This document shows, in pieces, positions 1,418 through 31,745 of a stretch of 42,081 nt of DNA. The stretch comes from an uncultured Gemmatimonadota bacterium (lineage in GTDB: Bacteria > Gemmatimonadota > Gemmatimonadetes > Gemmatimonadales > GWC2-71-9): NCBI GenBank assembly GCA_946887295.1, contig CAMPKP010000011.1:1-42081 (forward strand), given 5' to 3'. A model generated the notes under the pieces. That model worked only from the letters and a program-made list of their open reading frames with translations. It had not been told where the DNA came from and made no database searches. How positions within the stretch are numbered: position 1 is the first letter of the stretch; the number at the start of each line of letters is the position of its first letter. Made by a program: the position numbers and the translations under genes.

Positions 1418-4381
1418 CTACTGCGCCGCCACCCGCCCGCTGATCTCCTCCACCAGCGCCCGGTGCCGCTCCGACGGCCGATCGTACCGCTCGAGAAACC
1501 GCCGATAGTGGCCCGCGGCCGCGTCGGCCCGCCCGCGCGCTTCCTCGATGCGGCCGCGCTCGAGGTCCACCAGGGGAGCCAGCATGGCGCTGTAAGAGGT
1601 GCTCGAGTGGAGCAGGAAGGGGCCGTCCACCCACCGCAGCAGCCGCAGCGCCTGCTCGGCATCACCGGCCGCGGCGAGCCAGCGGGCCGCCGCCAGCCGG
1701 TCCACCCCGATGACCAGAGGATGACTGTCGAAGGCCGGCGCGGAGACGGCTGCCTGCTCCCACTCCACCGATGCCATGGCCTTCCCCGCCTGGCGGACGT
1801 CGCCCGCGAGCGCCGTCTCGAAGGCGCCGAGCGAACGGTCGAGCGCGGCCGACGCGGGATCCCCGGACCGCCGCACCGCCCCGGTCGCGGCCGCAAGTCC
1901 GCCGCGGTCGTTCCGGGCGGCCGCCAGGACTCCATCCAGCCACGCGAGCTCGGCCGCACCGGTGGTGCCCGTGCGTGAGGCGGACCCGGCTGCCGCCTCC
2001 CGGCGCGCGAGGGCTACGTCGGGACCGAGCGCGCCGAGCCAGGCGCCGAGCACGGTCAGGCCATAGGCGCGGAGCGGCGCGAGGGAGTCGCCGCCTTCCG
2101 CAGCCATCCGATCCATGCCGGCGGCGACGGAATCCCAGGCCCCCCGTCCACCCCAGGACAGCGTGAGCATCATCCCCTGCGCTCCGCGCCGCGCCGAGGG
2201 CTGTCGAGCGATGACCGCGCGGCTCACGGCGATCTGCTCGGGAAAGAAGCCGTAGTCGAACGGGTCGTAGAAGCTGTCATCCTCGACGGCGGGTGACGCC
2301 ACGTCGCGCGCGATGCTGTCGGTCAGGACGTCCACCGTCGCGCTGTCGGCCCGCTGGATGGCCTGGAGGAACCGGAACTGGAGCATGCGGTCGCCGTAGC
2401 CGTCGGCCGTCAGTGTGGGACCGGCGTCGAGGCGCTCCAGCGAGCCGAGGGCGCGGGCCGCGGCGGCCGTGTCCCCTTCCAGCAGCGCGACCAGCATCAG
2501 GTGCTCCCAGGCGGGAATCAGGCCCTGGTTCAGCTCCAGCGCCCGCTCGAAGGCGCGGCTCGCCTCGTCCCGCGTGCGCCCGACCAGCGGCCCCGCATGG
2601 AGCAGCGCGTCCCCGTAGATCAGCCAGCCGAACCAGGAGCTGGGATAGCGCTCGCCCGCGGCCTGGCCCACCTCGAGCACCCGCACCAGGCTGTCGCGCG
2701 CCAGCAGGGTGATCGCCTCGGTGCTCAGGCGATCCCGCTCCGGCAGCTCGAAGCGGTGGTGCTCGAGCGTGTCCACCACACTGTCGGCGACCGGCCTCAC
2801 CGACCAGTAGCGGGCGTAGATGTGCCGGGCGTAGGCGAGCCAGAACCCGGGGTCGTCGCGGATCGCCCGCTCGTACGAGACGGCGGCCGTGTCCCACTCG
2901 CCGTGGGCCAGCTCGCGCTCTCCCTGGAGGAACTCGCGCAGCGCGGGGACCGAGCGGGTCCGCAGCGCGGCGTCGACACTCGGGGTCGGCGGGGTCCCCC
3001 GCGACCAGATCTGCGCCAGGATCGCCCGCGCGGCCGAATCGGTCAGCGCCGCCACCGAGTCGAGCGGCGCGCCGACGGTCGCGCGCGCCAGCGGCCGGGC
3101 GGCGCTGTCGGTGCCGACGAGCGCCAGGTCCAGCCGCACCCGCTCGCCGTCGCGCACCAGGCTGCCGTGCACCATGCTCCCGGCCCCGAACCGTCGCGCC
3201 AGCGCGGCGCCTTCGTCCAGCGTCGTCACCGTCCCCGGCTCGGCCCGTGCCAGCACCGTGTGGGCGTCCACCACCCGGATCCCGCCCAGCCCGTCGAGCG
3301 CCGCGCTCAGGGTGAACACCAGGTCGCGGCCGAGACGAAGCAGAGCGGTGTCGGAGACGCTGGGCGTGAACGGCAGCACGGCGATGGAGGACGCGGAGCC
3401 CACCACTTCGGCCGGCCCGCCGCGCCGCCAGAGGAGCAGCCCGGCCGCCGCGAGCGCGCCGGCCGTGGCCGCGACGAGGCCCCACCTGATCGCCCGGCCG
3501 CCGCGCGCCGGCTCCGCTGCCTTCCCGACCCTCGCCTCCCCCAGGGCGGCCTCGATCTCCGCGGCGGTGGCGAACCGGTCGGCCGGCGCCTTGGCGAGCG
3601 CGCGGCCGATGATCCGCTCGACCGCCTCGGGAACGGTCGGCCGGATGGATCGGATCGGGGGCACCGGATCCGCCATCGAGCGAGCCACGATGGCCTGCGC
3701 CGAGGGACCGGTGAAGGGCGGCTCGCCGGCGAGCGTCTCGTAGAGAACGCAGCCGAGGGCGTAGACGTCGGTGCGCCCGTCCACCGCCGAGCCCGTCGCC
3801 TGCTCGGGGCTCATGTAGTGCACCGTCCCCAGCGCGAGGCCGGTCGCGGTGAGCCGCTCCCCGCCCGCGAGCGTGAGCGCGCGCGCGACGCCGAAGTCCA
3901 CCAGCACCGCCTGGCCGGCGGAGACCATGATGTTGTCGGGTTTGACGTCGCGGTGGATCACCCCGTGGCCGTGGGCATACGCCAGCGCCGACGCCACGTC
4001 GCCCGCGAGCCGGAGCGCCTCGTCCACCGGGAGCTGCGGGTCGCGCCGCAGCCGGTCCCGCAGCGACTCGCCTTCGACGTAGGGCATGACGTAGAACGGC
4101 AGGGATCCTCCGGGGCCGGTCTCGACGATCCCCGAGTCCAGCAGCGGCAGGATGTGCGGGTGCTGGAGGCGGGCGGTCAGCCGGATCTCCAGCAGGAAGC
4201 GCTCCGCCCCCACGCTCGCGGCGAGCGCCGGGTCGAGGACCTTGAGGGCGACGGGGCGATCGTGCCGGAGGTCGTGGGCCAGGTAGACGGCCGCCATGCC
4301 GCCGCGGCCGAGCTCCCGCTCGACGCGGTAGCGGTCGCCGAGCGCGGCATTCAGCGCGGGCAGGGGATCGGCTGGCGTCAC
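1418..4381 (-). CDS. Ser/Thr protein kinase with TolB-like and TPR C-terminal region
   Basis: 987 residues from a GTG start. The N-terminal Hanks-type kinase domain (about 18-280) has the glycine loop GRGGMAAVY, catalytic Lys47, HRDVKPDN (Asp145), DFG (Asp162) and the GTVHYMSPEQ activation-segment end, so it should be active. A single membrane helix lies near 298-318. After it comes a TolB-N/FlgO-like domain beginning IAVLPFTPSVSD, then a long helical-repeat region with TPR-like character to the end. This architecture places a cytoplasmic kinase on one side of the inner membrane and a periplasmic interaction region on the other. Longer upstream starts lack the kinase N-terminal pattern shared with the three other kinases here. 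The gene is divergent from the M24 peptidase. Substrates are unknown. Confidence 0.9.
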   Translation of the reverse strand: MTPADPLPALNAALGDRYRVERELGRGGMAAVYLAHDLRHDRPVALKVLDPALAASVGAERFLLEIRLTARLQHPHILPLLDSGIVETGPGGSLPFYVMPYVEGESLRDRLRRDPQLPVDEALRLAGDVASALAYAHGHGVIHRDVKPDNIMVSAGQAVLVDFGVARALTLAGGERLTATGLALGTVHYMSPEQATGSAVDGRTDVYALGCVLYETLAGEPPFTGPSAQAIVARSMADPVPPIRSIRPTVPEAVERIIGRALAKAPADRFATAAEIEAALGEARVGKAAEPARGGRAIRWGLVAATAGALAAAGLLLWRRGGPAEVVGSASSIAVLPFTPSVSDTALLRLGRDLVFTLSAALDGLGGIRVVDAHTVLARAEPGTVTTLDEGAALARRFGAGSMVHGSLVRDGERVRLDLALVGTDSAARPLARATVGAPLDSVAALTDSAARAILAQIWSRGTPPTPSVDAALRTRSVPALREFLQGERELAHGEWDTAAVSYERAIRDDPGFWLAYARHIYARYWSVRPVADSVVDTLEHHRFELPERDRLSTEAITLLARDSLVRVLEVGQAAGERYPSSWFGWLIYGDALLHAGPLVGRTRDEASRAFERALELNQGLIPAWEHLMLVALLEGDTAAAARALGSLERLDAGPTLTADGYGDRMLQFRFLQAIQRADSATVDVLTDSIARDVASPAVEDDSFYDPFDYGFFPEQIAVSRAVIARQPSARRGAQGMMLTLSWGGRGAWDSVAAGMDRMAAEGGDSLAPLRAYGLTVLGAWLGALGPDVALARREAAAGSASRTGTTGAAELAWLDGVLAAARNDRGGLAAATGAVRRSGDPASAALDRSLGAFETALAGDVRQAGKAMASVEWEQAAVSAPAFDSHPLVIGVDRLAAARWLAAAGDAEQALRLLRWVDGPFLLHSSTSYSAMLAPLVDLERGRIEEARGRADAAAGHYRRFLERYDRPSERHRALVEEISGRVAAQ

Positions 4382-4467
4382 TCGATGGTGGGAGAAGGAC
4401 TCAGCAAATGTGGCCGGAGCGGAGAGCGAAAGCCAGCCACTGCTGGAGCCGGGGCTCGGGCCGCGGC

Positions 4468-4496
4468 TTGACACTCGTCGGATGCCGCCGTACCCT
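4468..4496 (+). promoter_or_regulatory. sigma70-like promoter of the M24 peptidase gene
   Basis: TTGACA at 4468-4473 and TACCCT at 4491-4496 are separated by 17 bp. The predicted start of transcription is near 4503, about 37 nt before the ATG at 4540, and a GGAAGGA Shine-Dalgarno-like element lies at 4523-4529. The -35 is a perfect consensus. Confidence 0.6.
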
Positions 4497-4539
4497 GGCC
4501 CACTGGATCCCCATCCACACCCGGAAGGACCGAAACTCC

Positions 4540-6069
4540 ATGCGCGCTGACTGTAGCGCCTGTCGTAGCGCGGCCTCCGCCGCGCTGCTGCTCCTCGCCG
4601 GTGCGGTCGCGACGGTCGTGCGCCCCTCGGGCGCGACTGCGCAGATCCCCCCCGCCGAGTACGCTGCCCGCCGCGCCGCACTCGTCTCCAATCTGGATTC
4701 CGGCGTCGTCGTCGCCTTCGGCGCCCCCGATCCGGTCAGCTCCTGGCCTACCTTCTTCCAGACCCCGCATTTCTACTATCTGACCGGCTTCGCCGAGAGC
4801 AACGCCGCGCTGGTGATGGTGAAACGCGGCGGATCCACGGTGGCTACCCTCTTCGTCCCGACCCGTTCGCCGATGCGGGAGCGCTACGACGGCGCCCGGA
4901 TCCGTGCCGCCGAGCTCGAGGCGAAGACCGGCATCCCCGGCGCGGACATCGCCGGCCTGCGGCCGATGGTGGACTCGCTCGCCGCCCTGGGGCTTCCGTT
5001 CTACGTCGTCTCCGACGCCCAGAGCGGCGACTACGTCGCGCTCGACACGCTGACCCGCGGTCGTCGTGTCCTCTCGCAGGTGCGGCAGGCGCACCCGTTC
5101 CTCGTCATGCACTCGCTCGATACCCTGGTGAACCGGCTCCGGGCGAGGAAGACGCCGGCGGAGATCGCCCTGCTGCGCCGGGCCACGGAGATCAGCGGCC
5201 GCGCCCACCGCGAGGCCATGAAGGCGGCGGCGCCGGGTTGCGGCGAGTACGAGATCCAGGCGCTGCTCGAAGGGACCTTCCGGCGCTTCGGCGGCGACCG
5301 GCCCGGCTATGGGAGCATCGTCGGCTCGGGCCCGAATGCCACGATCCTGCACTACATGGAGAACGGTCGCGTGATGCGGGAGGGCGAGCTGCTGCTCATC
5401 GACGCGGCGACCTCCTTCGACCACTACTCGTCCGACATCACCCGCACCATGCCGGTGAGCGGACGGTTCACGCCGCGCCAGCGGGAGCTCTACCAGATCG
5501 TGCGCGACGCGCAGGAGGCGTTCGTGCGTCAGATCCGGCCGGACGTGAGCTACGACGTCGCGAGCGACTCGGGGAAGGCGGTGGTGGCGCGGGGGCTGCT
5601 CCGGCTGGGGCTCATCGAATCCGCCGACGGGACGATCGATCCGCCCGAGGGGATGCGCTGTCCGGACGGCGGCTGCCTCCAGCTCCAGCTCTTCGCCCTG
5701 CACGGATTCGGCGGCCACGGTATCGGGCTGGAGGTCCACGACCCGGCCCGGTACTACCAGGAGATCGACGACCGTTTCGGCGTGGGCGACGTGTTCACCG
5801 TCGAGCCCGGGATCTACGTGAGCCCCGAGCTGCTGGCGAGCCTGCCCGGCACGCCGAAGAACCGCGCATTGCTCGCGCGCATCCGACCGGCGGTCGAGAA
5901 GTACCGGCACCTGGGCGTGCGGATCGAGGACGTCTATGCGCTGACCGACCGCGGCCTCGAATGGCTGTCGAAGGGCTCACCCCGGGAGATCGGGGAGATC
6001 GAGGCGCTCATGCGGGAGCGCGAGCCCGACCTGCCGGGTGGGGGGAGCTGCGGCCGGCCGCGGACCTGA
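4540..6069 (+). CDS. secreted M24 family metallopeptidase (Xaa-Pro aminopeptidase type)
   Basis: 509 residues. An N-terminal signal peptide (hydrophobic run ALLLLAGAVATVV, cleavage near ATAQ) leads into an aminopeptidase P N-terminal domain (HFYYLTGFAE) and a pitta-bread catalytic domain. All five expected metal ligands are present: Asp288, Asp299 (SSDITRT), His393 (GGHGIGLEVHD), Glu422 (TVEPGIYV) and Glu463 (RIEDVY). The protein should release N-terminal residues that precede proline, and the signal peptide places it in the periplasm or envelope. A roughly 20-residue insertion with two Cys (RCPDGGC) precedes the His motif and could form a disulfide after export. The ATG is chosen because the signal peptide starts there. 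The gene is monocistronic and convergent with the next operon. Confidence 0.88.
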   Translation: MRADCSACRSAASAALLLLAGAVATVVRPSGATAQIPPAEYAARRAALVSNLDSGVVVAFGAPDPVSSWPTFFQTPHFYYLTGFAESNAALVMVKRGGSTVATLFVPTRSPMRERYDGARIRAAELEAKTGIPGADIAGLRPMVDSLAALGLPFYVVSDAQSGDYVALDTLTRGRRVLSQVRQAHPFLVMHSLDTLVNRLRARKTPAEIALLRRATEISGRAHREAMKAAAPGCGEYEIQALLEGTFRRFGGDRPGYGSIVGSGPNATILHYMENGRVMREGELLLIDAATSFDHYSSDITRTMPVSGRFTPRQRELYQIVRDAQEAFVRQIRPDVSYDVASDSGKAVVARGLLRLGLIESADGTIDPPEGMRCPDGGCLQLQLFALHGFGGHGIGLEVHDPARYYQEIDDRFGVGDVFTVEPGIYVSPELLASLPGTPKNRALLARIRPAVEKYRHLGVRIEDVYALTDRGLEWLSKGSPREIGEIEALMREREPDLPGGGSCGRPRT

Positions 6070-6095: not shown

Positions 6096-6521
6096 TCAGG
6101 TCGCCGGCTTCCGCTCCCGCCCGGACGCGTCGCCCGCGACCGACTCGGTGTGCATCGCGCAGCGCCACGCGTCCCCGCGGCGCACCCAGACGCTGCCGTC
6201 GAACGCGTGCTGCGTGCGCGGCTTCCCCTCGACCGTCATGACCTCGCGCACGCCATAGACGATCACCGCCACGTCGTCGCTGAGCTGCCGGACCTTGGCC
6301 CCCTCCTCGATCTTCACGTCCCGGATCTGCCACGAGGCGTCGGCCATCATCTTCTCGTAGGTCGCCTGGTCCACCGATCGCACCCCGCTCGCGCCGGCGA
6401 CGAGACAGGGAAAATCGGTGAGCGCCATCGCCGTCCGGACGTCGCGCTCGCGCATCGCCTGCCAGTACCGCCGCTCCAGATCGAGGATCTCGGTCTCGAT
6501 CGTCCTGGTCGTGGTCGCCAT
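6096..6521 (-). CDS. NTF2-like / DUF4440 (SnoaL-type) small protein
   Basis: 141 residues with the DUF4440-type layout: an N-terminal helix (ILDLERRYWQAMRERD), the turn MALTDFPCLVAG, and C-terminal strands (KVRQLSDDVAVIVYGV, then GSVWVRRGDAWRCAMH). Proteins of this fold are often small binding or isomerase-like domains, and no catalytic residues can be assigned. A GGAGG five bases before the second ATG favours this start over one 12 bases upstream. It is the last gene of the minus-strand operon with the GTPase and PP2C phosphatase, 24 bp after the phosphatase stop, so it may be an accessory of that system. It has no signal peptide and is probably cytoplasmic. Confidence 0.75.
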   Translation of the reverse strand: MATTTRTIETEILDLERRYWQAMRERDVRTAMALTDFPCLVAGASGVRSVDQATYEKMMADASWQIRDVKIEEGAKVRQLSDDVAVIVYGVREVMTVEGKPRTQHAFDGSVWVRRGDAWRCAMHTESVAGDASGRERKPAT

Positions 6522-6545
6522 TCGTGCCTCCATATCCTTTCCGCG

Positions 6546-7406
6546 CTATGCCGGACCCGCCTGCACCCGCGCGGTGATGACTGTGATGTTGTCGTGCCCC
6601 CCGCCCGCCAGCGCCTCGTCCACCAGCTCGCGGCACGCCGTACCCGCATCGGTGGGACGCCCGAGCAGCTCGGCGATGCGCTCGTCCGGGACGTGACGGG
6701 TGAGGCCGTCGCTGCAGAGCAGCAGCGTGTCGCCCGGCAGGAGATCCACCAGCCCGACCGACGGCGTCATCTCCGGTCCCCCGAGCGCGCTCACCAGCGT
6801 CGCGCCGATGGGCGCCTTGCGCGCCTGCTCCTCGGTCCACGCGCCGGAGTCCACCATGTACTCGCCCGTGGTCTGGTCCCGGGTGAGCTGCCGCAGCCGC
6901 CCCTTCCTCAGGTAGAACGCCCGGCTGTCGCCCACGTGCACGATGTACGCCCGCGGCCAGACCAGCAGCGCCATCGTCAGCGTCGTCGCCGGCCCCGGCT
7001 CCGCGTGCCGGCCTCCGCCACGGCCGTACTGCTCGGTGATCCGCCGGTGGGCCGAGAGGACCGCGCCCTCGAGCTGCTCCAGCAGCTCGTGCTCCCGGTC
7101 CGCGTCGTGCCGGTTGAAGCAGCCCGCCGCGCGGCCGAGATATTCGGCCAGCGTGGTGACCGCACTCTCGCTCGCGAGGGCGCCCCCCGCCTGGCCGCCC
7201 ACGCCGTCGGCGACGACGAAGAGCCAGCCGTCCGGACCCCGCAAGCCGTCGAACACCCGCGGGTCGGGCAGGCTCGTCTCCCGGACCTCGGCCGACTTCC
7301 GCAGGGTCATGACCACGAAGTGATCCTCGTTCGCCGTGCGCTTCTTCCCCACGTCGGTGAGTCCCCGCGCGTCGATCCGCACCGACGTCTCGGCCGTCGC
7401 CGTCAT
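6546..7406 (-). CDS. PP2C-family Ser/Thr protein phosphatase
   Basis: 286 residues. The PP2C motifs occur in order: GKKRTANEDHF, VVADGVGGQAGG, the GPATTLTMALL strand, HVGDSRAFYLR, DQTTGEYM, LLLCSDGLTRHV and GHDNITVI. The metal-binding Asp residues of the binuclear Mn/Mg site are all present. There is no transmembrane segment. A strong Shine-Dalgarno GGAGG lies 7 bases before the ATG, which overlaps the GTPase stop codon by 4 bp (ATGA). Translational coupling to the GTPase suggests that it dephosphorylates a component of the same module or the targets of nearby kinases. No dedicated kinase lies in this operon; several kinases lie elsewhere in the window. Confidence 0.92.
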   Translation of the reverse strand: MTATAETSVRIDARGLTDVGKKRTANEDHFVVMTLRKSAEVRETSLPDPRVFDGLRGPDGWLFVVADGVGGQAGGALASESAVTTLAEYLGRAAGCFNRHDADREHELLEQLEGAVLSAHRRITEQYGRGGGRHAEPGPATTLTMALLVWPRAYIVHVGDSRAFYLRKGRLRQLTRDQTTGEYMVDSGAWTEEQARKAPIGATLVSALGGPEMTPSVGLVDLLPGDTLLLCSDGLTRHVPDERIAELLGRPTDAGTACRELVDEALAGGGHDNITVITARVQAGPA

Positions 7407-7912
7407 GAGCGTGCCTCCCTGGTGGCGAGCATCGCCCGGCCGATCCGCTGGAAGGTCTCCTCCACGCCGGCACCGGTCTTGGCGCTGGTGCGCACCACCT
7501 CCAGCCCGCGGGCCAGCTCCTCCTCGTCGCGCGGGCCGAGCTTCCATTGGTCCACGAGGTCGGTCTTGTTGAGCGCGAGCACTTCGGGGACCTCACCGGC
7601 GGCCTCACGCGCCAGCGCCCGCAGCTCGGGCAACTGGTCGCAGGTCTCCTTCCGCGTCCCGTCCGCGACGTAGAGGATGGCGTGCGCGCCCTTGAGGTAG
7701 CTGGTGGTGATGTCCTCGTGCCCGTCGCGCCCCGCCAGGTCCCAGAGCACCAGGGTGAGCTGGGTGCCGTCCAGCTCGAGGGGCTTGCGGTCGATCTTGA
7801 CGCCCACGGTGGAGAGGTAGCGGTCCGAGAACAGCGAGTGGACGAACCGCTGCACCAGGCTCGTCTTCCCGGTTCCGAACACGCCCACCATGCAGACCTT
7901 CTTCTGGATCAT
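7403..7912 (-). CDS. Rab-like small GTPase
   Basis: 169 residues forming a single Ras-superfamily G domain. G1 is GVFGTGKTS (10-18), switch I contains STVGVK, G3 is WDLAGRDGHED, G4 is LNKTDL and G5 is TSAKTG. In Ras and Rab the switch II reads DTAGQE with a catalytic Gln; here that position is Arg, so intrinsic hydrolysis may be slow or depend on a partner. There is no C-terminal prenylation motif and no membrane segment. The start overlaps the OmpA-like gene stop by 4 bp and the stop overlaps the PP2C start by 4 bp. The upstream partner carries a longin/roadblock-like region, the kind of domain that binds small GTPases elsewhere (for example MglB with MglA). Confidence 0.9.
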   Translation of the reverse strand: MIQKKVCMVGVFGTGKTSLVQRFVHSLFSDRYLSTVGVKIDRKPLELDGTQLTLVLWDLAGRDGHEDITTSYLKGAHAILYVADGTRKETCDQLPELRALAREAAGEVPEVLALNKTDLVDQWKLGPRDEEELARGLEVVRTSAKTGAGVEETFQRIGRAMLATREARS

Positions 7913-9672
7913 CGCGACGACTCCTCCCCGGGTCCCACCTCCAGGCTCACCTGGAACGACACGCTGCGGTTGATTCGCGCTCGCTCCGCCGGGTTGCTGC
8001 TCCCGAGCGGCTGGCCGGTGCCGAGGGCGCGGAGCGAGGCCTTCGACCGGGGCACACCCCGCACGGCGAGCGCCCGCAGCACCGCCTCCGCGCGCTCCTG
8101 GCTGAGCGCCCGGTTGGTCGAGTCGGAGCCGGTCGGGTCGGTGCGGCCCACCAGCTCCAGTGTCGCGCGGGCTCCGAGCGCGGCGGCGCCGGCTTCCATC
8201 CGGCCGAACCCGTCGGCGACGCGGCCGATCGTGCGTCTGTCGATGTCGTCGAGTGCCCCGGAGCCGACCTCGAACAGCACCCGTTCGCGCTCGATCGCCT
8301 CGCGCAGCTCCGCCAGCGCCTCGGGGATCTCGGGCCTCACCTGGTCGAGGTCGAGCACCACCGCCCCGGCCGGGAGCGCGGCGGCCCGCGCCGCCGCCAC
8401 CCAGGCGAGCGGCGCCGCTCCGCCGGCCCGGAGCGTGTCTCCCGCGAGCGACAGCGTCAGGCCCGGCGGCGGCTGCAGCGCGCGTCGCGACCGGGCCAGC
8501 ACCATCTCGGGCCGCAGCGAGAGATACGGCTCCCACCGCTGCTCGACCCGCCCGGTGTCGGCGCCGAGCGCCGCCAACAGCGCCGCGGGCTCCGGCGCCA
8601 GCGGGTCGCGCAGACCCGCGAGCTTCCACGTCCTCCAGCCGCGCTCGGCCCCGGTCACGACGATCCCCGGCTCCGCCTGGAGCCGGGCGACTGCGGCGTT
8701 CCACCGCAGGCGCGACCGCAGGATCAGCCCGCCGACGACCGCCGCCACCGCCAGCGTCGCGAGCGCCAGCGGGAGCCAGCGCCGCCGGGACCTCGTCTCT
8801 GCCGCCCGGTCGGTCGCGACCACCGTCGCGAGGCACTCCTCCAGGAGCGGCTGGGCCGCCGCGAACGGGTCCGTGTCGCCGTCGAACTCGGCGAGAGCGC
8901 CGGCGAACCGGAGGTGGATCGTCTCCAGCGTCGCCTGGAGGAGGAGCAGCAGCTCGTCGGGGGCCACGCCACGCACGACGGCGGCGACCAGCGCCTGCGG
9001 CCCCTGCTCGACCATGACGGTCAGCTCGCCGACGGAGAACCGGCGCAGCCCGCCGGCCTCACGCTCCGGGCTGAAGGAGTCGGCCACGAAGTCGCGGATG
9101 GCGGTGAGCATTCCGGAGATGAGGTCGCCGTCGCTCGCGGGCAGGTCGGGCGCGCGGGCGTGGGCGAGCAGCAGCCCCGTGTCGCGGTGGATCAGGAAGA
9201 CCTGCTCGACTCGATACACCAGCGCGTGCTTGAGCACGACCTGCGCGAAGGGCACGCCGGTGCGCCAGGACTCGAAGCGCCAGCGGAGCCCGCGGGGGGA
9301 GAAGCTGTGCTCCAGCGCGCGGTTGATGCTCGCGGCCAGGCCGGCGAGCGCCTCGGCGATGGCCTTGCGGATCGCGGGGCCGAGGACCGGGAAGATCGCG
9401 GTGGCGATGGGGCGGGGGTTCCGGCGGACCGACTCGCCGATGGCGTTCTCGACCGTCGGCGCGAGCGCCCGCGCGAGCTGGCGGTCGCGCCCGGTGCGAA
9501 GGGCTATGGCTTCCGGGAGCAGCTCGGCCAGGTTCTCGCGGCTGAGCCCGGCGGCGTCCAGCCGGCGCTCCAGCTCGGCCAGCCGCCTGCGCTCGGGGCC
9601 GAGGATCAGCTCGCGCAGCTCCGCGAGGTCGGGCGCTTCGGCCTGCTCCCAGGGTGCCCGCTCGTTGGGCAT
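7909..9672 (-). CDS. membrane protein: longin/roadblock-like region, TM helix, BON-like region, OmpA C-terminal domain
   Basis: 587 residues. Residues 1-140 are helical and begin with the motif LRELILGPERRRLAEL. Residues about 150-275 show a beta-alpha-beta-alpha pattern (VEQVFLIHRDTGLLLAHA, then an amphipathic helix, then GELTVMVEQG) typical of longin or roadblock folds. One transmembrane helix (WLPLALATLAVAAVVGGLIL) lies near 299-320. A BON-like segment (EPGIVVTGAERG) follows, and an OmpA/MotB peptidoglycan-binding domain occupies about 460-575 (VGRTDPTGS, NRALSQERAEAVLRAL, and NPAERARINRSV). With no signal peptide, the N-terminal half should be cytoplasmic and the C-terminal half periplasmic. 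The protein could therefore link peptidoglycan to the GTPase encoded next. I recall this domain order as a conserved but uncharacterised family. Confidence 0.85.
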   Translation of the reverse strand: MPNERAPWEQAEAPDLAELRELILGPERRRLAELERRLDAAGLSRENLAELLPEAIALRTGRDRQLARALAPTVENAIGESVRRNPRPIATAIFPVLGPAIRKAIAEALAGLAASINRALEHSFSPRGLRWRFESWRTGVPFAQVVLKHALVYRVEQVFLIHRDTGLLLAHARAPDLPASDGDLISGMLTAIRDFVADSFSPEREAGGLRRFSVGELTVMVEQGPQALVAAVVRGVAPDELLLLLQATLETIHLRFAGALAEFDGDTDPFAAAQPLLEECLATVVATDRAAETRSRRRWLPLALATLAVAAVVGGLILRSRLRWNAAVARLQAEPGIVVTGAERGWRTWKLAGLRDPLAPEPAALLAALGADTGRVEQRWEPYLSLRPEMVLARSRRALQPPPGLTLSLAGDTLRAGGAAPLAWVAAARAAALPAGAVVLDLDQVRPEIPEALAELREAIERERVLFEVGSGALDDIDRRTIGRVADGFGRMEAGAAALGARATLELVGRTDPTGSDSTNRALSQERAEAVLRALAVRGVPRSKASLRALGTGQPLGSSNPAERARINRSVSFQVSLEVGPGEESSR

Positions 9673-9675
9673 GCC

Positions 9676-10257
9676 CTAGCTCCGGGGGCCGTTCTTCCCC
9701 GGGGGCGACGTCGGCGCGCCGCCCAGCCGGGCGGCCATGTCGGTGAGCATCCCGGCGAGGGCGGTCCGGTCGGTCTTGGCCGAATCGAGCGCCTGGTGCG
9801 ACCGGGCCAGCTCGTTCGAGAGCTGCTCGCCCAGCAGGAGGAGCTCGTCGCGGAGCGTGGCATCGGCAAGGTTGGCGGATTCCTCCAGCTTCACGTGCCG
9901 CTTCTCCAGGGCTCGGATCGCCTCCTTGATCTCGGCGGCGAGCGACTTGAGCTCCTCGGTGCGCTTGGCCCGCTCGGCGGCGAGGCGCTCGTCGAGGGTC
10001 TGGACCTCGCTCCGGATGAAGGCGTCGAGCGACTCGACCTGTCGGGCGAAGTCGCTGCGGAGCGCCTCGTGCTCCTGCCGGAAGCGCTCCTCGATCACCT
10101 GGAGCCGGCTCTCGACCGCGCGCATCTGCCCGCCGAACAGAATGTCGCGAACCTTGTCGAGGCTCTCGGGCTGGGAGTCGGTCACGGGGGACGGGGCGGG
10201 AGGCTCGGCGACTTGAAGCCCGCCGGACTTCCGCTTGTCGGATTCGGTTGGGGGCAT
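9676..10257 (-). CDS. coiled-coil protein of the GTPase operon
   Basis: 193 residues, first gene of the operon. Residues 1-30 are polar and proline-rich. A motif KVRDILFGGQMRAVESRL begins near residue 34, followed by about 130 residues of continuous charged heptad-like helix, ending in a Gly/Pro-rich tail. No enzyme motif or membrane segment is present. The KVRDILFGG motif resembles the LRELILGPE motif at the start of the next protein, suggesting a shared binding surface. The gene ends 3 bp before the OmpA-like start. A promoter-like pair lies 28-57 bp upstream, and there is no clear Shine-Dalgarno. Its likely role is a cytoplasmic scaffold or oligomeriser; this is inference. Confidence 0.8.
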   Translation of the reverse strand: MPPTESDKRKSGGLQVAEPPAPSPVTDSQPESLDKVRDILFGGQMRAVESRLQVIEERFRQEHEALRSDFARQVESLDAFIRSEVQTLDERLAAERAKRTEELKSLAAEIKEAIRALEKRHVKLEESANLADATLRDELLLLGEQLSNELARSHQALDSAKTDRTALAGMLTDMAARLGGAPTSPPGKNGPRS

Positions 10258-10284
10258 GGTCAGCTCGAAGGGGAGGACCGCCCT

Positions 10285-10314
10285 AACGTACAGCGCAGAT
10301 CATGGATTGGCCAA
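10285..10314 (-). promoter_or_regulatory. promoter of the GTPase operon with palindrome at -35
   Basis: On the minus strand, TTGGCC (10314-10309) and TACGTT (10290-10285) are separated by 18 bp and predict a start near 10278, about 21 nt before the first ATG. The -35 lies inside a perfect 10-bp palindrome ATTGGCCAAT (10306-10315) that could be an operator. The hexamers are partial matches only. Confidence 0.4.
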
Positions 10315-10339
10315 TGCCGGGGCGGTCCCCCGACGACTC

Positions 10340-10882
10340 TCAGCCTGCGCGAATGGCGGAAAGTCCGCCGGTCCCGGCCAGTTGCTCCAGCAGGAACGCC
10401 GAGACCTCCCGCGGCGCGCCGAGCTCCAGCCGCCGAACCGGCCGCGCCACGGCGAGCGGCGCATCCGTCGCGACGGCGATCACCATCGGATCGTCCGGCC
10501 AGCGCCGGGGCGGCTCGCCGAGCGCCGGCCGGTAGACCTCGATCTTCGGGTAGGACTCGCGCGCGAAGCCCTCGGCGAGGACGAAGTCCACCCGGGCCGG
10601 GTCGAACCGCTCGAGCAGCTCCCGGAACGGCGGCTCTGCCAGGTCGCCCTCCAGCTCGCCGAGGTGCGCCCACCGGGTGCGGGAGGCGATCAGCACCTCC
10701 GACGCTCCCGCCTCCCGGACCCGGAAGCTGTCCTTGCCCGGGCGGTCCATGTCGAACCCGCAGTGCGCATGCTTGAGCACCGCTACCCGGAGCCCCTCCG
10801 CCCGGAGCAGCGGGAGCACCGCGGTGATGAGCGTGGTCTTGCCGCTGCCGCTCGCCCCGACGAATCCGACGACCGGCGGCAC
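10340..10882 (-). CDS. mobB: molybdopterin-guanine dinucleotide biosynthesis protein MobB
   Basis: 180 residues from a GTG start. The N-terminus has the P-loop GASGSGKTT (9-17), followed by LRVAVLKHAHCGFDMDRPGKDS, the signature segment of MobB (shown in two parts: KHAHCGFDMD and RPGKDS). Later comes VDFVLAEGFARESYPKIEV, equivalent to the family's LVEGFK region. MobB is a GTP-binding accessory to MobA in attaching the nucleotide to molybdopterin. The gene begins 1 bp after the molybdoenzyme stop, so cofactor maturation is coupled to synthesis of its client. Length is normal for stand-alone MobB. No mobA is in the window. It is cytoplasmic. Confidence 0.88.
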   Translation of the reverse strand: MPPVVGFVGASGSGKTTLITAVLPLLRAEGLRVAVLKHAHCGFDMDRPGKDSFRVREAGASEVLIASRTRWAHLGELEGDLAEPPFRELLERFDPARVDFVLAEGFARESYPKIEVYRPALGEPPRRWPDDPMVIAVATDAPLAVARPVRRLELGAPREVSAFLLEQLAGTGGLSAIRAG

Positions 10883-10883
10883 G

Positions 10884-13016
10884 TCAGATCCTCGCGATCT
10901 CGACCCGGTTGTCCGACTGAGTGCCGGCCCCGCCCAGATTGCTGTGCCGCGACGAGGTGGTCGAGTTGACCGCCGACCCGTTCCGGGTCAGGCTGGGCCA
11001 GTAGCCCAGGCTCGCCAGCGCCATGCCCTGCATGACGTCGTCGCTCAGCTCGGCCAGCCCCTCGAAGACGCCACGGTCGTTGAACACCCGCACGTAGTCG
11101 CCTTCCCTGATGCCGCGGGTCGCGGCGTCCGCCGGGTGGATGACGACCCGCTGCTCGCCCTGGCGGCGCTGCTGCCGCGGCTCGTTGGCGTACTGCGAGT
11201 TGAGGAACGCGTGCGGCTTGGGCGACAGCAGGCTGATCGGATACCGGGCCAGCTCGCCGTTCGCCGTCACCTCGACCGGCGGGATGTAGTTGGGCACCGG
11301 ATCCACCGGCTCGCCCGACTGCATCTCGGTATAGCCGTTCCGCCAGACCGGGACGACGAAGTTGCCGTTCGCGGCCGCGCTGGCCTTGAACTCGCACTTT
11401 CCCGACGGCGTCTTGAAGTTGCCCTCCGCGTGCGGCGCCCGCTCGTGGGGCAGCCCCACGTTGAGCCGCATCCACCCCTTCTCCTTGAGCTTCTCCAGCG
11501 TGATCCCCTGCATCGCCGGCGCGCTCCAGTCGTACATCCGCGCGAGCAGCTCGTCGTCGCTCATGGACCAGTAGTCGTCGTCGAAGCCCATGGTCTTCGC
11601 CAGACGGCGGAACATGTCCACGTTGGAGACGCACTCGCCCGGCGCGGCGATGGCCGGCTGGTTGAGCATGACGTAGAGATGGCCCCAGGTGACCTGGAGG
11701 TCGTACTGCTCCGCCTGGAGCGTGGCCGGGAGGATGATGTCGGCGTAGCGCGCGGTGTCGGTCATGAACAGCTCGCTCACCACCGTGAACAGGTCCTCCC
11801 GCTGGAGCCCCCGGACCATGGTGTTCGCGTTCTGCTGCTGGGACACCGGATTGGAGTTGTGGATGAACACCGACATGAGCGGCGGATCGAGGCCCATCTC
11901 GCCGCTCAGCGCGCGGCCGAGGTCGAGCTCGTTGACCACCCGGGTGCCGGGCCGGATCCAGTCGGGCCGCTGGATGAAGTCGAAGTTGAAGGGGAACTCC
12001 CAGATCGGCATCTCGACCGCGCCGCCCCCGACGTGGCGCCAGGCGCCGACCAGCGCGGGCAGTGAGCTGACCAGCCGCACCGCGTCGCCGCCGCCCGGCG
12101 AGCGCTCGATGGCCACGCCCTCGCGGATGGCCGCCGGCTGGGTGGTGGCGTACTCGCGCGCGAGCTTCCTGATGTCGTCGGCCGGGATCCCGGTGATGGC
12201 CGCCACCCGCTCCGGCGGGAACTCCGCGGCCCGCGCCTTCAGCTCCTCGTAGCCGAGCGTGTACTTCGCCACGTAATCGTGATCCACCAGGTCCTCGGCG
12301 ATGATCACGTTCATCATGCCGAGGGCAAGCGCACCGTCGGTCCCGGGGCGAATGGCGACGTGCCAGTCGGCCGCCTTGGCGGTGCGGCTCCGCACCGGGT
12401 CGATCACCACCACCTTGGCGCCCTTCGCCTTCGCCTCCAGGATGAAGGGCCAGCCGTGCAGGTTGGTGCTGATCATGTTCATGCCCCACACGATGATGTA
12501 CTTCGCGTGGGCGAGGCTCTCCACGTCGAGCCCGCCGGTCGGGCCCACGGTCATGATCCAGGCGGTGGAGGAGCCCGACTCGCAGTAGCACTTCTCGCCG
12601 ATGGTGGCGCCGAGCCGGTTGAAGAAGGCGTCGCCGCTGGTGAGGCCGTTGAGCGTGCCCTGGTTGCCCAGGTAGCAGTGGTTCATGATGGCCTGCGGGC
12701 CGTACCGGGCGATGATGTCGGTCCAGCGGCGCTTGATCTCGGCGAGTGCCTCGTCGTACGTGATCTGCTCGAAGCGGCCGCTCCCCTTGGGGCCGGCGCG
12801 CCGGAGCGGGTGCAGCAGCCGGTCGGGGTTGTAGTGGTGCTCCGCGTAGTTGTTGAGCTTCACGCACAGCCCGCCGCGGGTCATCGGGTGATCGGGGTCG
12901 CCGGTCACGTCGACCAGCTTGCCGTCCTGGACGTGATAGAGGAAGGCGCAGGTGTCGGGGCAGTCCTGGGGACAGGCGCCCCTCACGATTCTGGTGCCAA
13001 TAGCAGGTGCGGCCAT
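10884..13016 (-). CDS. molybdopterin-dependent oxidoreductase (DMSO reductase family, Fe4S4-containing)
   Basis: 710 residues. The N-terminal cluster motif uses Cys15, Cys19, Cys23 and Cys51 (CPQDCPDTC, then GGLCVK), which binds one 4Fe-4S. The molybdopterin fold follows, with the pterin-binding stretches IVWGMNMIST, VVVIDPVRSRTA and DTARYADIILPA. A C-terminal molydopterin-dinucleotide domain has HPADAATRGIREGDYVRVFN. The metal ligand is probably a Cys in EKCYCESGSST, but this is not certain. No Tat signal is visible, so the enzyme is probably cytoplasmic. The substrate cannot be predicted; no membrane anchor or electron-transfer subunit is adjacent. A GGAGG Shine-Dalgarno lies 6 bases before the ATG. 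It is followed directly by mobB. Confidence 0.9.
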   Translation of the reverse strand: MAAPAIGTRIVRGACPQDCPDTCAFLYHVQDGKLVDVTGDPDHPMTRGGLCVKLNNYAEHHYNPDRLLHPLRRAGPKGSGRFEQITYDEALAEIKRRWTDIIARYGPQAIMNHCYLGNQGTLNGLTSGDAFFNRLGATIGEKCYCESGSSTAWIMTVGPTGGLDVESLAHAKYIIVWGMNMISTNLHGWPFILEAKAKGAKVVVIDPVRSRTAKAADWHVAIRPGTDGALALGMMNVIIAEDLVDHDYVAKYTLGYEELKARAAEFPPERVAAITGIPADDIRKLAREYATTQPAAIREGVAIERSPGGGDAVRLVSSLPALVGAWRHVGGGAVEMPIWEFPFNFDFIQRPDWIRPGTRVVNELDLGRALSGEMGLDPPLMSVFIHNSNPVSQQQNANTMVRGLQREDLFTVVSELFMTDTARYADIILPATLQAEQYDLQVTWGHLYVMLNQPAIAAPGECVSNVDMFRRLAKTMGFDDDYWSMSDDELLARMYDWSAPAMQGITLEKLKEKGWMRLNVGLPHERAPHAEGNFKTPSGKCEFKASAAANGNFVVPVWRNGYTEMQSGEPVDPVPNYIPPVEVTANGELARYPISLLSPKPHAFLNSQYANEPRQQRRQGEQRVVIHPADAATRGIREGDYVRVFNDRGVFEGLAELSDDVMQGMALASLGYWPSLTRNGSAVNSTTSSRHSNLGGAGTQSDNRVEIARI

Positions 13017-28273: not shown

Positions 28274-28315
28274 GCGGCGTGCGGCACCAGCCGCACGATG
28301 CATCGGGATGTAATC

Positions 28316-28353
28316 GCGACGGCCGGCTCCTCTTCGGAGGAGCCGGCCGTCGC
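28316..28353. terminator. bidirectional terminator with UUCG loop
   Basis: A perfect 17-bp stem (28316-28332 with 28337-28353) closes on the extra-stable loop TTCG. It stands between the convergent cold-shock gene and the kinase gene ending at 28370, so it probably separates both. T-runs are weak on either side. Confidence 0.7.
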
Positions 28354-28369
28354 CGTCTCTACCCCCAGG

Positions 28370-31051
28370 TCAGCGCTGCGCCCGCGCCTTCATCTCCTCA
28401 ACCCAGTTCTGCACCACGATCAGCTCGTTGCGATCCGTCGGCGTGGTCTCCCTGAGCATCAGGAACCGCTTGTCGTCGGGGCTCACGTCGAAAGCCGGCA
28501 CCGCGGGTACCGGCGAGTAGGGCGCGGTGGAGAAGAGCCGCCTGGGCGGGCTGATCGTGAACGACGCACCCGGCGCGACCTGCACGCTCATCATCTCGTT
28601 CTGCGTGCTGCGATAGAAGAGCTCCCGCCCGCTTCGCGACCACACCGGATCGGTGCCCCCCGCCGCCGAGACCTGCCACCGCGCGGATGCGGCGTCGGGG
28701 AACGGACGCACGTAGATCTCGAACACCCCCGACTCCTCCGACGCGTACGCCAGCCAGCGCCCGTCGGGCGAGACAGCCGCGTCGGCTTCGACAGCGGGGC
28801 TCGCGGCGAGCGACACCAGCGTGGTGTCTCCCATCCGGGTGGCGAGGATGTTGCCCCTCCCCGGGCCACCGATCGTGCTCCGCAGCACCAGCCAGCGGGC
28901 GTCACGCGTCTGGAGGACCTGTCCCCAGGTGGATGCGCCAGGCAGGAGGGTCTGCTCGCTGCCGGTGCCGTCGGCCCGGCGCATCGCGGGCACCCCGCCG
29001 ATGTTGCTCACCCTCGCCAGGTAGAGGACGGACCGCCCGTCGGCCGACCAGGTCGGGCGCATGCTGCCGGTGTCCCCGAAGGTGAGCCGGGAGTAGGGAC
29101 CCTCCGGGAGCTGCTTGACCCACACGGTGCTGAGCCCGTTCTGAACCACGTCCACCGCCAGCGCCTTGCCGTCGGGGGAGAGGGCGAAGTTGGAGATGAT
29201 CCCCTGCGGCTGCCAGGCGGGATCGACGGGGCTTTCGGCTCCGTCCCGGCTGACCCAGACCGGCCGGCGCGACCCGGTGGCGCCCCCCGTCGTGTACATC
29301 AGGGTGCCGTTCTCCGACAGGTCGAGGTTGATGGAGAACCCGCTGCCCTCGACTCCGATTCCCTCGAGCAGTCCGATCGGGGAGCCGTTCGCTTCCAGCT
29401 TCTCGGGGTCGAACGGCAGCGCGAGGAGCTTCCCCTCCGCGGTCGCGACCAGGAGGTGTCCGGTCGGCGAGTACCGCGCGAACACGCCGCGCATGATCAC
29501 TTTCGGCTCGCCCTTCGGCAGCTTCATCGCGACGATCTGGTAGTCCGCGGCCGACTGGCTCGGGCGCCGGGTCCGGAAGACCAGTCCGCCGCCTTCGGGC
29601 AGAAGCACGGGCCACTCCGCGCCTTCCTCCTTCCGCGCCAGCGCATTGTACACCAGCTCGGCGGGTCCGCCCGACGACCGCATGCGGATGATCCCCGAGT
29701 CCCCTTCGACGTAGATGTACCCGTCCGGCCCCCAGGTGCCGCCGGTCGAGTTCACGCTGTCGCTGAGCGTGAGCACGGGGCCGCCGTCGAGCGAGACCGT
29801 CCGGAGCGTCGTGCCGTTGATCAGGAACCCCACGTGGCGACCGTCGGGCGAGAAGAATGGCGTCCCGGCGTTCTCGGTTCCCGCGATCGGAGCCGAGGTC
29901 AGCTGGTCGTGCTCCCGGAGCCACAGCTTGCCGCCGCGCTCCGCGGGTCCCACGTACACGATCCGCTTTCCGTCCGGCGAGAGCGCGACCCGGTTGCCCG
30001 ACTGGGTCACCGGCTGGAGCGCCTGCTCCGGCGGCATGAAGAGACTGAACCGGTTGACTGTCGGCGAGGGGGCCGGCCGGAGCCAGGCCCAGAGCGCCGC
30101 GGCGGTGGCTGCGAGGGCGACGCCGGCGAGCGCGAGGGTGATGGGATCGCGGCGCCTCGCGGCCACGGACGCGGCGGGGCCCGGCGCGGCCGCCGTCGAG
30201 GCCACGGTCGGCACGTAGTTCCGCCCCGCCAACGCCTCGGCGAACTCCGCGGCGGTGGCGAACCGGTCGGCCGGCAGCTTCTCCAGGGCGGTCCGTACCG
30301 CGGCTTCCACGTGCGGCGGGATGGTGTGGCGCTGGGGGAGCATGGCGCGCGGCGCCTCGGTGAGCACCCGGGCCACGACCGCCTGCGCGGTGGAGCCGGT
30401 GAACGGAGGGTCGCCGGTGAGCATCTCGTAGAGCATCGCGCCGAGCGCGTAGACGTCCGAGCGGGCGGTGATCTCCCGCTCGCCCATGGCCTGCTCCGGG
30501 CTCATGTAGTGCGGCGTGCCGAGCGACATGCCGGTCTCGGTCATCCGCTGGCCGCTGGCCTTGCTCGCCGCCAGCGCGATACCGAAGTCGGCCACCAGCG
30601 CCTGGCCGTCGTGGAGCAGGATGTTCTCCGGCTTGATGTCGCGGTGGACCACGCCGTGGCGGTGGGCGTAGTCGAGCGCCGAGGCCACCTCGGTGGCGAT
30701 GCGCACCGCGTCGGCCACCGGGAGCTGCTTCTCACGGGTGAGCCGGTCGCGCAGCGTCTCCCCCTCGACGAACGGCATCACGTAGAAGAGGTAGGAGTCG
30801 GCCTCGCCGGAGTCGAACAGCGGCAGGATGTGCGGATGCTGGAGATTGGCGGTGAGCTTGATCTCGGCGAGGAACCGCTCGGCGCCGATGACCGCGGCCA
30901 GCTCGGGCCGCAGCACCTTGAGCGCGACCCTGCGGTCGTGCCGGACGTCCTGCGCCAGGTACACCGTCGCCATGCCCCCCGCGCCGACCTCGCGCTCGAG
31001 CCGGTAGCGGTCCTCGAGGGCGGACTGGAGACGGCTCAGCAGCTCGGGCAT
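28370..31051 (-). CDS. Ser/Thr protein kinase with C-terminal TolB-type beta-propeller
   Basis: 893 residues. The kinase domain (16-275) has GAGGMATVY, Lys45, HRDIKPEN (Asp138), DFG (Asp155) and GTPHYMSPEQ. A membrane helix lies near 300-322 (ITLALAGVALAATAAALWAW). The remainder has repeated WD40/PD40 blades with the recurring SPDGR or SPDGK turn, for example LSPDGKRIVYVG, FSPDGRHVGFL, LSPDGKALAVD and WSADGRSVLYLA. The kinase should therefore be cytoplasmic and the propeller periplasmic. Its N-terminus MPELLSRLQSALEDRYRLER closely matches the kinase at 41915. Upstream of the start no consensus promoter stands out. A terminator separates it from the cold-shock gene. Confidence 0.93.
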   Translation of the reverse strand: MPELLSRLQSALEDRYRLEREVGAGGMATVYLAQDVRHDRRVALKVLRPELAAVIGAERFLAEIKLTANLQHPHILPLFDSGEADSYLFYVMPFVEGETLRDRLTREKQLPVADAVRIATEVASALDYAHRHGVVHRDIKPENILLHDGQALVADFGIALAASKASGQRMTETGMSLGTPHYMSPEQAMGEREITARSDVYALGAMLYEMLTGDPPFTGSTAQAVVARVLTEAPRAMLPQRHTIPPHVEAAVRTALEKLPADRFATAAEFAEALAGRNYVPTVASTAAAPGPAASVAARRRDPITLALAGVALAATAAALWAWLRPAPSPTVNRFSLFMPPEQALQPVTQSGNRVALSPDGKRIVYVGPAERGGKLWLREHDQLTSAPIAGTENAGTPFFSPDGRHVGFLINGTTLRTVSLDGGPVLTLSDSVNSTGGTWGPDGYIYVEGDSGIIRMRSSGGPAELVYNALARKEEGAEWPVLLPEGGGLVFRTRRPSQSAADYQIVAMKLPKGEPKVIMRGVFARYSPTGHLLVATAEGKLLALPFDPEKLEANGSPIGLLEGIGVEGSGFSINLDLSENGTLMYTTGGATGSRRPVWVSRDGAESPVDPAWQPQGIISNFALSPDGKALAVDVVQNGLSTVWVKQLPEGPYSRLTFGDTGSMRPTWSADGRSVLYLARVSNIGGVPAMRRADGTGSEQTLLPGASTWGQVLQTRDARWLVLRSTIGGPGRGNILATRMGDTTLVSLAASPAVEADAAVSPDGRWLAYASEESGVFEIYVRPFPDAASARWQVSAAGGTDPVWSRSGRELFYRSTQNEMMSVQVAPGASFTISPPRRLFSTAPYSPVPAVPAFDVSPDDKRFLMLRETTPTDRNELIVVQNWVEEMKARAQR

Positions 31052-31199
31052 ACGCCTGCTCCTGGGGTGATTGCCTTCGAGGATGGCGGTGGGGTGCGCC
31101 TGAAGCTACAGCCCGGGCCCCGCTCAGGCCAGATTCGGGGCGCATTTCAACCTGGGTGCATGTCCCGCGTCCGCGACCCGAGCCGCGGCGCGGCGCTCG

Positions 31200-31745
31200 T
31201 CACCCCTGGAACAGCAGCCGCACCGTCCACACCGCGATGATCATCGCGGCGGCGTCCGCCAGCAGCCCCGCCGGCACCGCGTGGCGCGTCTTCTTGATGC
31301 CTACCGCCCCGAAGTACACCGCGATCACGTAGAAGGTGGTCTCGCTGGAGCCGTACATGACGGCCGCCATCTTCACGAGGATCGAGTCCTCGCCGTACTG
31401 GTTGATCATGTCCACCACCAGCGCCGCCGAGCCCGAGCCCGAGAGCGAGCGGATGATGGCCATCGGAAGCAGCTCCGCGGGGAAGCCGATCACCCCCAGC
31501 ACCGGATCGAGCGCGCGGGTCAGGGCCTCCATCGCGCCGCTGGCCCGGAACATCGCGATGGCGAAGAGGATCGCCACCAGATAGGGAATGATGCGAACCG
31601 CGACCTGGAACCCGTCCTTCGCCCCCTCGACGAAGCTCTCGTAGACCGGCACCCGCTTGTAGAGGCCGTACAGCGGGAAGCCCACCAGAATGAGCGGAAG
31701 GACGAAGTAGGAGAGGAGGCTGACGACGTTGCGCACGGTCTCCAT
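31200..31745 (-). CDS. spmB: spore maturation protein B-like membrane protein
   Basis: 181 residues of SpmB / nucleoside-recognition-domain sequence with about five helices: LLSYFVLPLILVGFPLYGLY, VRIIPYLVAILFAIAMFRAS, the reentrant-looking ELLPMAIIRSLSGSGSAALV, VMYGSSETTFYVIAVYFGAV and ADAAAMIIAVWTVRLLF. RSLSGSGS and GSSETTFY are conserved motifs in this family. In spore formers SpmA and SpmB affect spore-core dehydration; elsewhere they occur as a pair of unknown transport role. It starts 7 bp after spmA, so the two form an operon. Confidence 0.88.
   Translation of the reverse strand: METVRNVVSLLSYFVLPLILVGFPLYGLYKRVPVYESFVEGAKDGFQVAVRIIPYLVAILFAIAMFRASGAMEALTRALDPVLGVIGFPAELLPMAIIRSLSGSGSAALVVDMINQYGEDSILVKMAAVMYGSSETTFYVIAVYFGAVGIKKTRHAVPAGLLADAAAMIIAVWTVRLLFQG

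Follow-up and report, generated by a model that had tools for sequence, protein, structure and literature searches.

A Rup-type GTPase gene cluster with a predicted longin domain and a PP2C phosphatase in the putative output position in a Gemmatimonadota bacterium

A row of minus-strand genes in an uncultured Gemmatimonadota bacterium (GenBank assembly GCA_946887295.1, contig CAMPKP010000011.1) raises the question of what a Rab-like small GTPase might do next to a protein that would reach the cell wall. The window, by which the whole analysed stretch of 42,081 nucleotides is meant, contains in this row the genes for a coiled-coil protein, an OmpA-like protein, the GTPase, a PP2C phosphatase and an NTF2-like protein. 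The original prediction, made from the DNA alone, regarded them as a candidate for an uncharacterised signalling module of the envelope. As to novelty this does not hold, since the Group 1 Rup neighbourhood was already published in 2014 by Wuichet and Sogaard-Andersen (PMC4316618). The accompanying claim, of three core families that are conserved and have no assigned function, agrees with that paper, whose sections on these proteins state that none of the Rup proteins had by then been studied by experiment. The module is probably a variant, from the Gemmatimonadota, of the Group 1 Rup unit, in which a longin domain would serve as the platform, an OmpA domain as the wall anchor and PP2C as the output.

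All five ORFs are present and packed as had been described. The genes for the OmpA-like protein and the GTPase, and those for the GTPase and PP2C, overlap by 4 bp, each time with the sequence ATGA, and a gap of 3 bp separates the coiled-coil gene from the OmpA-like gene. For the NTF2-like ORF, a gap of 24 bp is obtained with an internal ATG at 6521, which is preceded by GGAGG. The tight unit consists of four genes, coding for the coiled coil, the OmpA-like protein, the GTPase and PP2C. The predicted domain assignments were also recovered, with matches above the Pfam cut-offs to Ras (PF00071, 7.4e-28), PP2C_2 (9e-16; PF13672, 58.5 bits against a cut-off of 24), OmpA (9e-09; PF00691, 36 bits against 27.2) and DUF4440 (1.8e-11).

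The conservation of this gene order was analysed in 84 loci, comprising the best 80 of 558 confirmed loci from a GTPase scan of genome contigs, three plasmid loci and the window. The first query sequence was rhizobial, and so are 24 of the 80 loci; as the records name them, the 80 belong to the Alpha-, Beta-, Gamma- and Zetaproteobacteria, Desulfobacterota, Myxococcota, Cyanobacteria, Acidobacteriota, Nitrospirota and Bacteroidota, with no Gemmatimonadota among them. The coiled coil, the longin-OmpA protein and the GTPase are encoded in this order on one strand in 72 of the 84 loci, which come from some ten phyla or classes of proteobacteria (L008 and L009, which are included, show only a portion of the OmpA-like frame). 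The order, whose restriction to close relatives had been named as a refutation of the prediction, thus extends across phyla. In three further loci (L041, L044 and L050) the coiled coil/longin-OmpA pair lies beside the GTPase on the opposite strand, and six are cut by a contig end. L052 contains a partial OmpA-like frame and no detected coiled coil, and L029 and L053 have no such pair nearby. Altogether, a gene of the longin-OmpA family, whole or its end, adjoins the GTPase in 81/84 loci. A plasmid search returned four records, and the three that were fetched (Rhizobium, Mesorhizobium and Nostoc) all have the order of the window; the Mesorhizobium copy is annotated as hypothetical protein, OmpA family, Rab family GTPase and adenylate/guanylate cyclase.

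Among 20 additional, mostly divergent neighbourhoods of up to 13 kb, the three genes were found together in 15, two of which (L207 and L216) have a partial OmpA-like frame. The other five (L202-L206) are genomes of the Myxococcales phylum with a lone related GTPase, lacking coiled-coil, longin-OmpA and PAS-like genes. Of the 199 loci in which the G3 residue was compared (see below), 115 span no more than 2-4 kb, and a missing longin gene in these carries no meaning. When genomes were sampled at E 1e-25, the GTPase was present in 8/149 from the phylum of the Acidobacteria-named L037, 26/194 cyanobacterial, 12/296 Bacteroidetes-named, 21/148 Nitrospira and 8/188 Myxococcales genomes, and in 49/398 from the phylum of Variovorax, counts which include lone GTPases. 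A scan of viral contigs gave no relative. One copy of the module (L035) comes from a metagenome-assembled genome record named Klebsiella pneumoniae, a name which may be a mislabel.

The cytoplasmic half of the OmpA-like protein had been guessed to contain a longin/roadblock-like region. Structure prediction, the check that had been proposed, bore this out as a longin: residues 151-286 are predicted to fold as b-b-a-b-b-b-a-a with two C-terminal helices, preceded by a short helix (142-150) ahead of b1, and the central helix a1 is the most conserved element. No longin family was matched by the window fragment in Pfam, nor by 53 family members among the matches listed (25 of 46 families), and Pfam and PDB profile searches with the longin part gave only OmpA-type and scattered weak matches among those listed. 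None of the PDB profile matches listed (60 of 68) spans the cytoplasmic half of the family; PDB 2l26 matches profile positions 398-574 (E 6e-8). The hydrophobicity profile agrees with the predicted single membrane helix: the strongest segment, LPLALATLAVAAVVGGLIL, covers residues 300-318 (mean 2.41) with Arg-rich stretches on either side, and the highest value elsewhere (1.75, at residue 227) falls within the predicted longin. In the OmpA domain, D512 and R527, presumably the diaminopimelate-binding Asp/Arg pair, are invariant in 16 aligned rows. Before the longin, at residues ~61-125 and also in L003:8233-10524, a helical region with repeated 'APxIxxAI' segments was observed, which is expanded in the Nostoc copy. 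The rhizobial proteins L001:6761-9826 and L002:6698-9763 contain, by eye, four near-identical tandem periplasmic repeats, and the other rhizobial frames, apart from L008, L009 and the contig-edge loci, vary from 749 to 1021 aa, as if the copy number varied.

The fold comparison bears on two other explanations. The module could be a GAP (GTPase-activating protein) unit like MglAB, in which the longin supplies GTP hydrolysis and the OmpA anchor limits where the GTPase is GTP-bound, so that it would be a positional device and not a wall sensor. By Foldseek E-value, an MglB chain from the MglA-MglB complex ranks third (4.3e-4) and the Sec22b longin 24th (3.2e-3), but the target TM-score favours Sec22b (0.75) over MglB (0.43-0.50), and MglB is absent from the 50 VIA rows. 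MglB acts on MglA as a GAP and is in addition a guanine nucleotide exchange factor (PMC11016934, in the part available), and a GTPase without the G3 Gln would need hydrolysis to be supplied. PMC4316618 speculated, in its passage on this point, that the Gln comes from the N-terminal domain of the output protein, a domain which is absent here. Taken together, a GAP unit is considered unlikely. Alternatively, the longin might not act on the GTPase and might instead dimerise or autoregulate the OmpA anchor, in which case the coiled coil and the output would be the sole partners of the GTPase. SNARE longins, which are known to autoregulate, head the VIA rows, and fold likeness shows no function. 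The adjacency to the GTPase across phyla argues against this explanation, as does the conservation of helix a1, which corresponds to the part through which related roadblock proteins dimerise (PMC10933270, in the part consulted). It is therefore regarded as very unlikely.

The GTPase itself is Rab-like, as predicted: in addition to the Ras match, the 60 PDB matches listed (of 748) comprise 59 with the name Rab or YPT1 and one, 4rke_A, with only the name GH01619p. It carries the motifs GVFGTGKTS (G1), WDLAGR (G3), NKTD (G4) and TSAK (G5), and the G motifs are conserved in the 84 loci. Ras proteins have a catalytic Gln at G3. This residue is absent here, being Arg in the window GTPase and Glu in 82/84 loci; with Arg in place of the catalytic Gln, the window GTPase is expected to hydrolyse GTP slowly by itself. 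In a tree of 109 GTPases, built from the fetched loci only, with the reference Rup set and other Ras families outside, the window sequence branches with the main set (support 87) and no starred branch holds it. Four of the lone GTPases from the Myxococcales phylum (L165, L167-L169) form their own branch with support 100, the fifth having been omitted as near-identical.

The gene after the GTPase appears from its contents in other loci to be an exchangeable output slot, which in the window is filled with a bare PP2C. In 20 loci, the proteins encoded next to it in this slot, one per locus, were eight histidine kinases (several hybrid), five class III nucleotide cyclases, three HD phosphohydrolases (which we take to be of the HD-GYP type), one SpoIIE phosphatase, one sigma-54 activator and two proteins without a match; in further loci GGDEF-EAL proteins, more sigma-54 activators, kinases and one cyclase were identified. 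An N-terminal domain of one of two types, for which hidden Markov models were built here and named PAS-A and PAS-B by their look, is present in 82/84 loci and is followed by a near-invariant Gln (99% and 95%). No frame of the window gave a significant match to PAS-A or PAS-B (best E 1.1). The PP2C sequence contains NED, ADGVGG, GDSR, SDG and GGHDN, presumably the metal-binding motifs, and scores 165 bits against the Stp1/IreP equivalog NF033484, below the curated cut-off of 230. As this gene sits where output enzymes sit elsewhere, PP2C is more likely an output than a reset; the predicted resetting of the switch by dephosphorylation is possible and less likely.

It could be argued that PP2C and the NTF2-like gene are passengers behind a three-gene core and have no relation to it. 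PP2C lacks the usual N-terminal output domain, and no relative of either protein was found in 220 fetched loci (tblastn, E 1e-3; many loci only 2-4 kb). For PP2C, the 4-bp overlap with the GTPase gene and the position in the output slot speak against this, as do the SpoIIE phosphatase in the same slot in Variovorax and a linkage in the Gemmatimonadales, to which the OmpA-like and PP2C homologues belong in the listed rows where the organism is named. The two homologue lists (120 rows each) have 12 same-sized longest contigs in common (shifted mean 1.1, maximum 5), and ten of these are at least 5 kb long, a size reached by 32 PP2C and 71 OmpA contigs (shifted mean 0.14, maximum 2). That both genes are unrelated to the core appears distinctly unlikely. 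The NTF2-like gene on its own, which the original prediction had counted as a member, was rejected as part of the module, since its list has only two same-sized contigs in common with the OmpA list, both below 3 kb and within the range of the shifted control (mean 0.8, maximum 3), and no relative occurs in the 220 loci.

A covariation of the G3 residue with the PAS-like domain was also considered. The two of the 84 loci without a PAS-A/PAS-B match (the window with Arg and L003 with Ser) are the two without the G3 Glu, and in 199 loci the domain is present in 157/157 with Glu and in 7/42 without. On the GTPase tree, however, the Glu label is nearly one clade, with three changes over 109 rows, and divergent outputs, those of L003 and L214 among them, resemble the same domain in diverged form on visual inspection; the covariation was therefore dropped as independent evidence. 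Other arrangements of the slot were observed. In L217:7504-10449 and L218:2698-5622 (Nitrospira phylum), the GTPase and PAS-B are followed by TIR - NB-ARC/NACHT-like ATPase - TPR proteins of 981 and 974 aa with an immune-receptor-like architecture, and in L219:6338-10934 (cyanobacterial phylum) two consecutive output genes, for a histidine kinase and a nucleotide cyclase, come after the GTPase.

For the Rup unit with a PP2C output, the following mechanism is proposed. The longin, probably as a dimer, would form the membrane platform of the GTPase, acting as exchange factor or docking site, the OmpA domain would hold this platform to the peptidoglycan, and the coiled coil might organise the complex. 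Changes in the wall or in periplasmic width could then alter the loading of the GTPase by the longin, and the GTP-bound form would recruit or activate the output, in this case PP2C, which might dephosphorylate Ser/Thr proteins; two protein kinase genes are present in the window. The platform and the peptidoglycan tie are suggested by fold and co-conservation, and the control of the output by the GTP state is suggested by the slot position. Several points weigh against this proposal. Some eukaryotic longins, such as those of SNAREs and AP sigma, do not act on GTPases, and the contact between longin and GTPase is putative, the structure predictions having covered single chains. MglB roadblock chains outrank Sec22b by Foldseek E-value, and the helical region at ~61-125 is predicted with low confidence in both the window and the L003 models. 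The PAS-like domain with its near-invariant Gln, common to nearly all loci, is missing from the window PP2C, and the adjacency of PP2C in other Gemmatimonadota rests on contigs matched by size, not on read neighbourhoods.

The coiled-coil protein has no Pfam family above the cut-off; it carries a conserved head motif, LDKVRDILFGGQ, and a conserved tail motif, KTDRTALAGMLTDMAARL. The head motif was also seen in the OmpA-like protein (LAELRELILGPE), and the tail motif is seemingly repeated at the N-terminus of rhizobial OmpA-like proteins, which tentatively suggests one docking element in common. Searches with single profiles gave no significant match for the common head motif (best E 0.26). Profile against profile, windows chosen by a regular expression, a biased choice, gave a score of 21.7, where 100 shuffles reached at most 13.5; without this choice the score was 20.8, where 200 shuffles reached at most 18.8, with an HH probability of only 5.9%. 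The N-terminal extension of the OmpA homologue P0118 reads like the tail of the coiled coil, as if a coiled-coil gene sat just upstream there too.

In the surroundings of the module (Table 1), a MobB gene lies 82 bases upstream on the same strand, and beyond it a molybdopterin oxidoreductase gene (the two together at 10340-13016, minus strand), and co-transcription of these genes with the module is possible. The two genes with protein kinase domains, at 1418-4681 (minus strand) and 33682-36381 (plus strand), are possible counterparts of PP2C. An ORF of 980 aa at 28298-31240 (plus strand) had no Pfam match at E 1e-5. The perfect palindrome ATTGGCCAAT, which had been pointed out in the upstream promoter, is present, but it was rejected as an operator and given no weight, because the window contains 108 perfect 10-bp palindromes.

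Table 1. Features of the module and its upstream gap in the window
Feature	Position	Strand	Length	Remarks
Coiled-coil gene	9676-10257	-	193 aa	family in 75/84 loci
Longin-TM (transmembrane)-OmpA gene	7909-9672	-	587 aa	residues: helical ~14-150; longin 151-286 (predicted); TM ~300-318; periplasmic ~336-445; OmpA 467-569
Longin domain (predicted), residues 151-286 of the OmpA-like protein	8815-9222	-		
Rup-type (Rab-like) small GTPase gene	7403-7912	-	169 aa	
PP2C Ser/Thr phosphatase gene	6546-7406	-	286 aa	putative output slot; no N-terminal PAS-like domain
DUF4440/NTF2-like gene	6096-6533	-	145 aa	probably a neighbour, outside the conserved unit
Palindrome ATTGGCCAAT	10306-10315			gap before coiled-coil gene; not beyond chance

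The 'unknown domain' of 2014 thereby gains a predicted fold and a first mechanistic hypothesis, and the module can be described as a GTPase system whose output enzyme was swapped repeatedly. The genetic linkage of a Rab-like GTPase to a predicted longin across many bacteria is relevant to the question of how the Rab-longin pairing of eukaryotes arose; if a longin does stand beside the Rup GTPase in many phyla, this question becomes testable with purified bacterial proteins. A tentative and rather doubtful reading is that Rab-type GTPases were already paired with longin platforms in bacteria before there were eukaryotes, that the Rup-longin-OmpA unit is the form in which this pairing survives in bacteria, as a Rab-longin exchange device that is anchored to the wall and has interchangeable outputs, and that eukaryotes could have taken both partners together from a relative of this unit. 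The confidence in it is kept low, because a fold match does not show descent and bacterial and eukaryotic longins could have arisen in parallel from roadblock or PAS-like domains. In the portions of the literature consulted, longins were proposed to be derived from prokaryotic roadblock GAPs (PMC3521125), the orientation of the GTPase on Asgard roadblock and longin dimers was described as conserved (PMC10933270), and Loki longins were reported together with a table listing Longin/Roadblock as present in bacteria (PMC4917890; see also PMC4915359). The open full-text literature, with subscription papers and most preprints outside the search, gave no paper relevantly joining a longin with Rup, or with OmpA and a GTPase; PMC8743551, in the part seen, mentions longin, OmpA and GTPase once each. 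As far as these searches went, the longin assignment and the variant with PP2C as output are new.

Compared to the Group 1 Rup unit as described in the relevant sections of PMC4316618, the window has the same coiled coil, the same arrangement of unknown domain, TM segment and OmpA, a Rab/Ras-like GTPase without the G3 Gln and an output enzyme in fourth position. It differs in its fourth gene, whose PP2C product lacks the N-terminal domain with the invariant Gln, and in the assignment of the unknown domain, here to the longins; section 16 of that paper does not mention the Gemmatimonadetes among the Rup taxa. With Rv0899/OmpATb (ArfA, PDB 2l26), only the periplasmic half is alike. MglA/MglB and the actinobacterial conservons likewise combine a prokaryotic small GTPase with a partner of the roadblock/longin superfamily and a signalling output, whereas the window GTPase is Rup/Rab-like and its partner is a predicted longin fused to a TM segment and OmpA instead of a soluble roadblock protein. 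No sequence similarity to the eukaryotic Rab-longin exchange platforms (TRAPP, Mon1-Ccz1 and Fuzzy-Inturned) was found in the Pfam and PDB profile searches. The window resembles them in that a predicted longin adjoins a Rab-like GTPase; in contrast to them, its longin protein is single-pass, wall-anchored and encoded in an operon, and is known here from its sequence and predicted fold.
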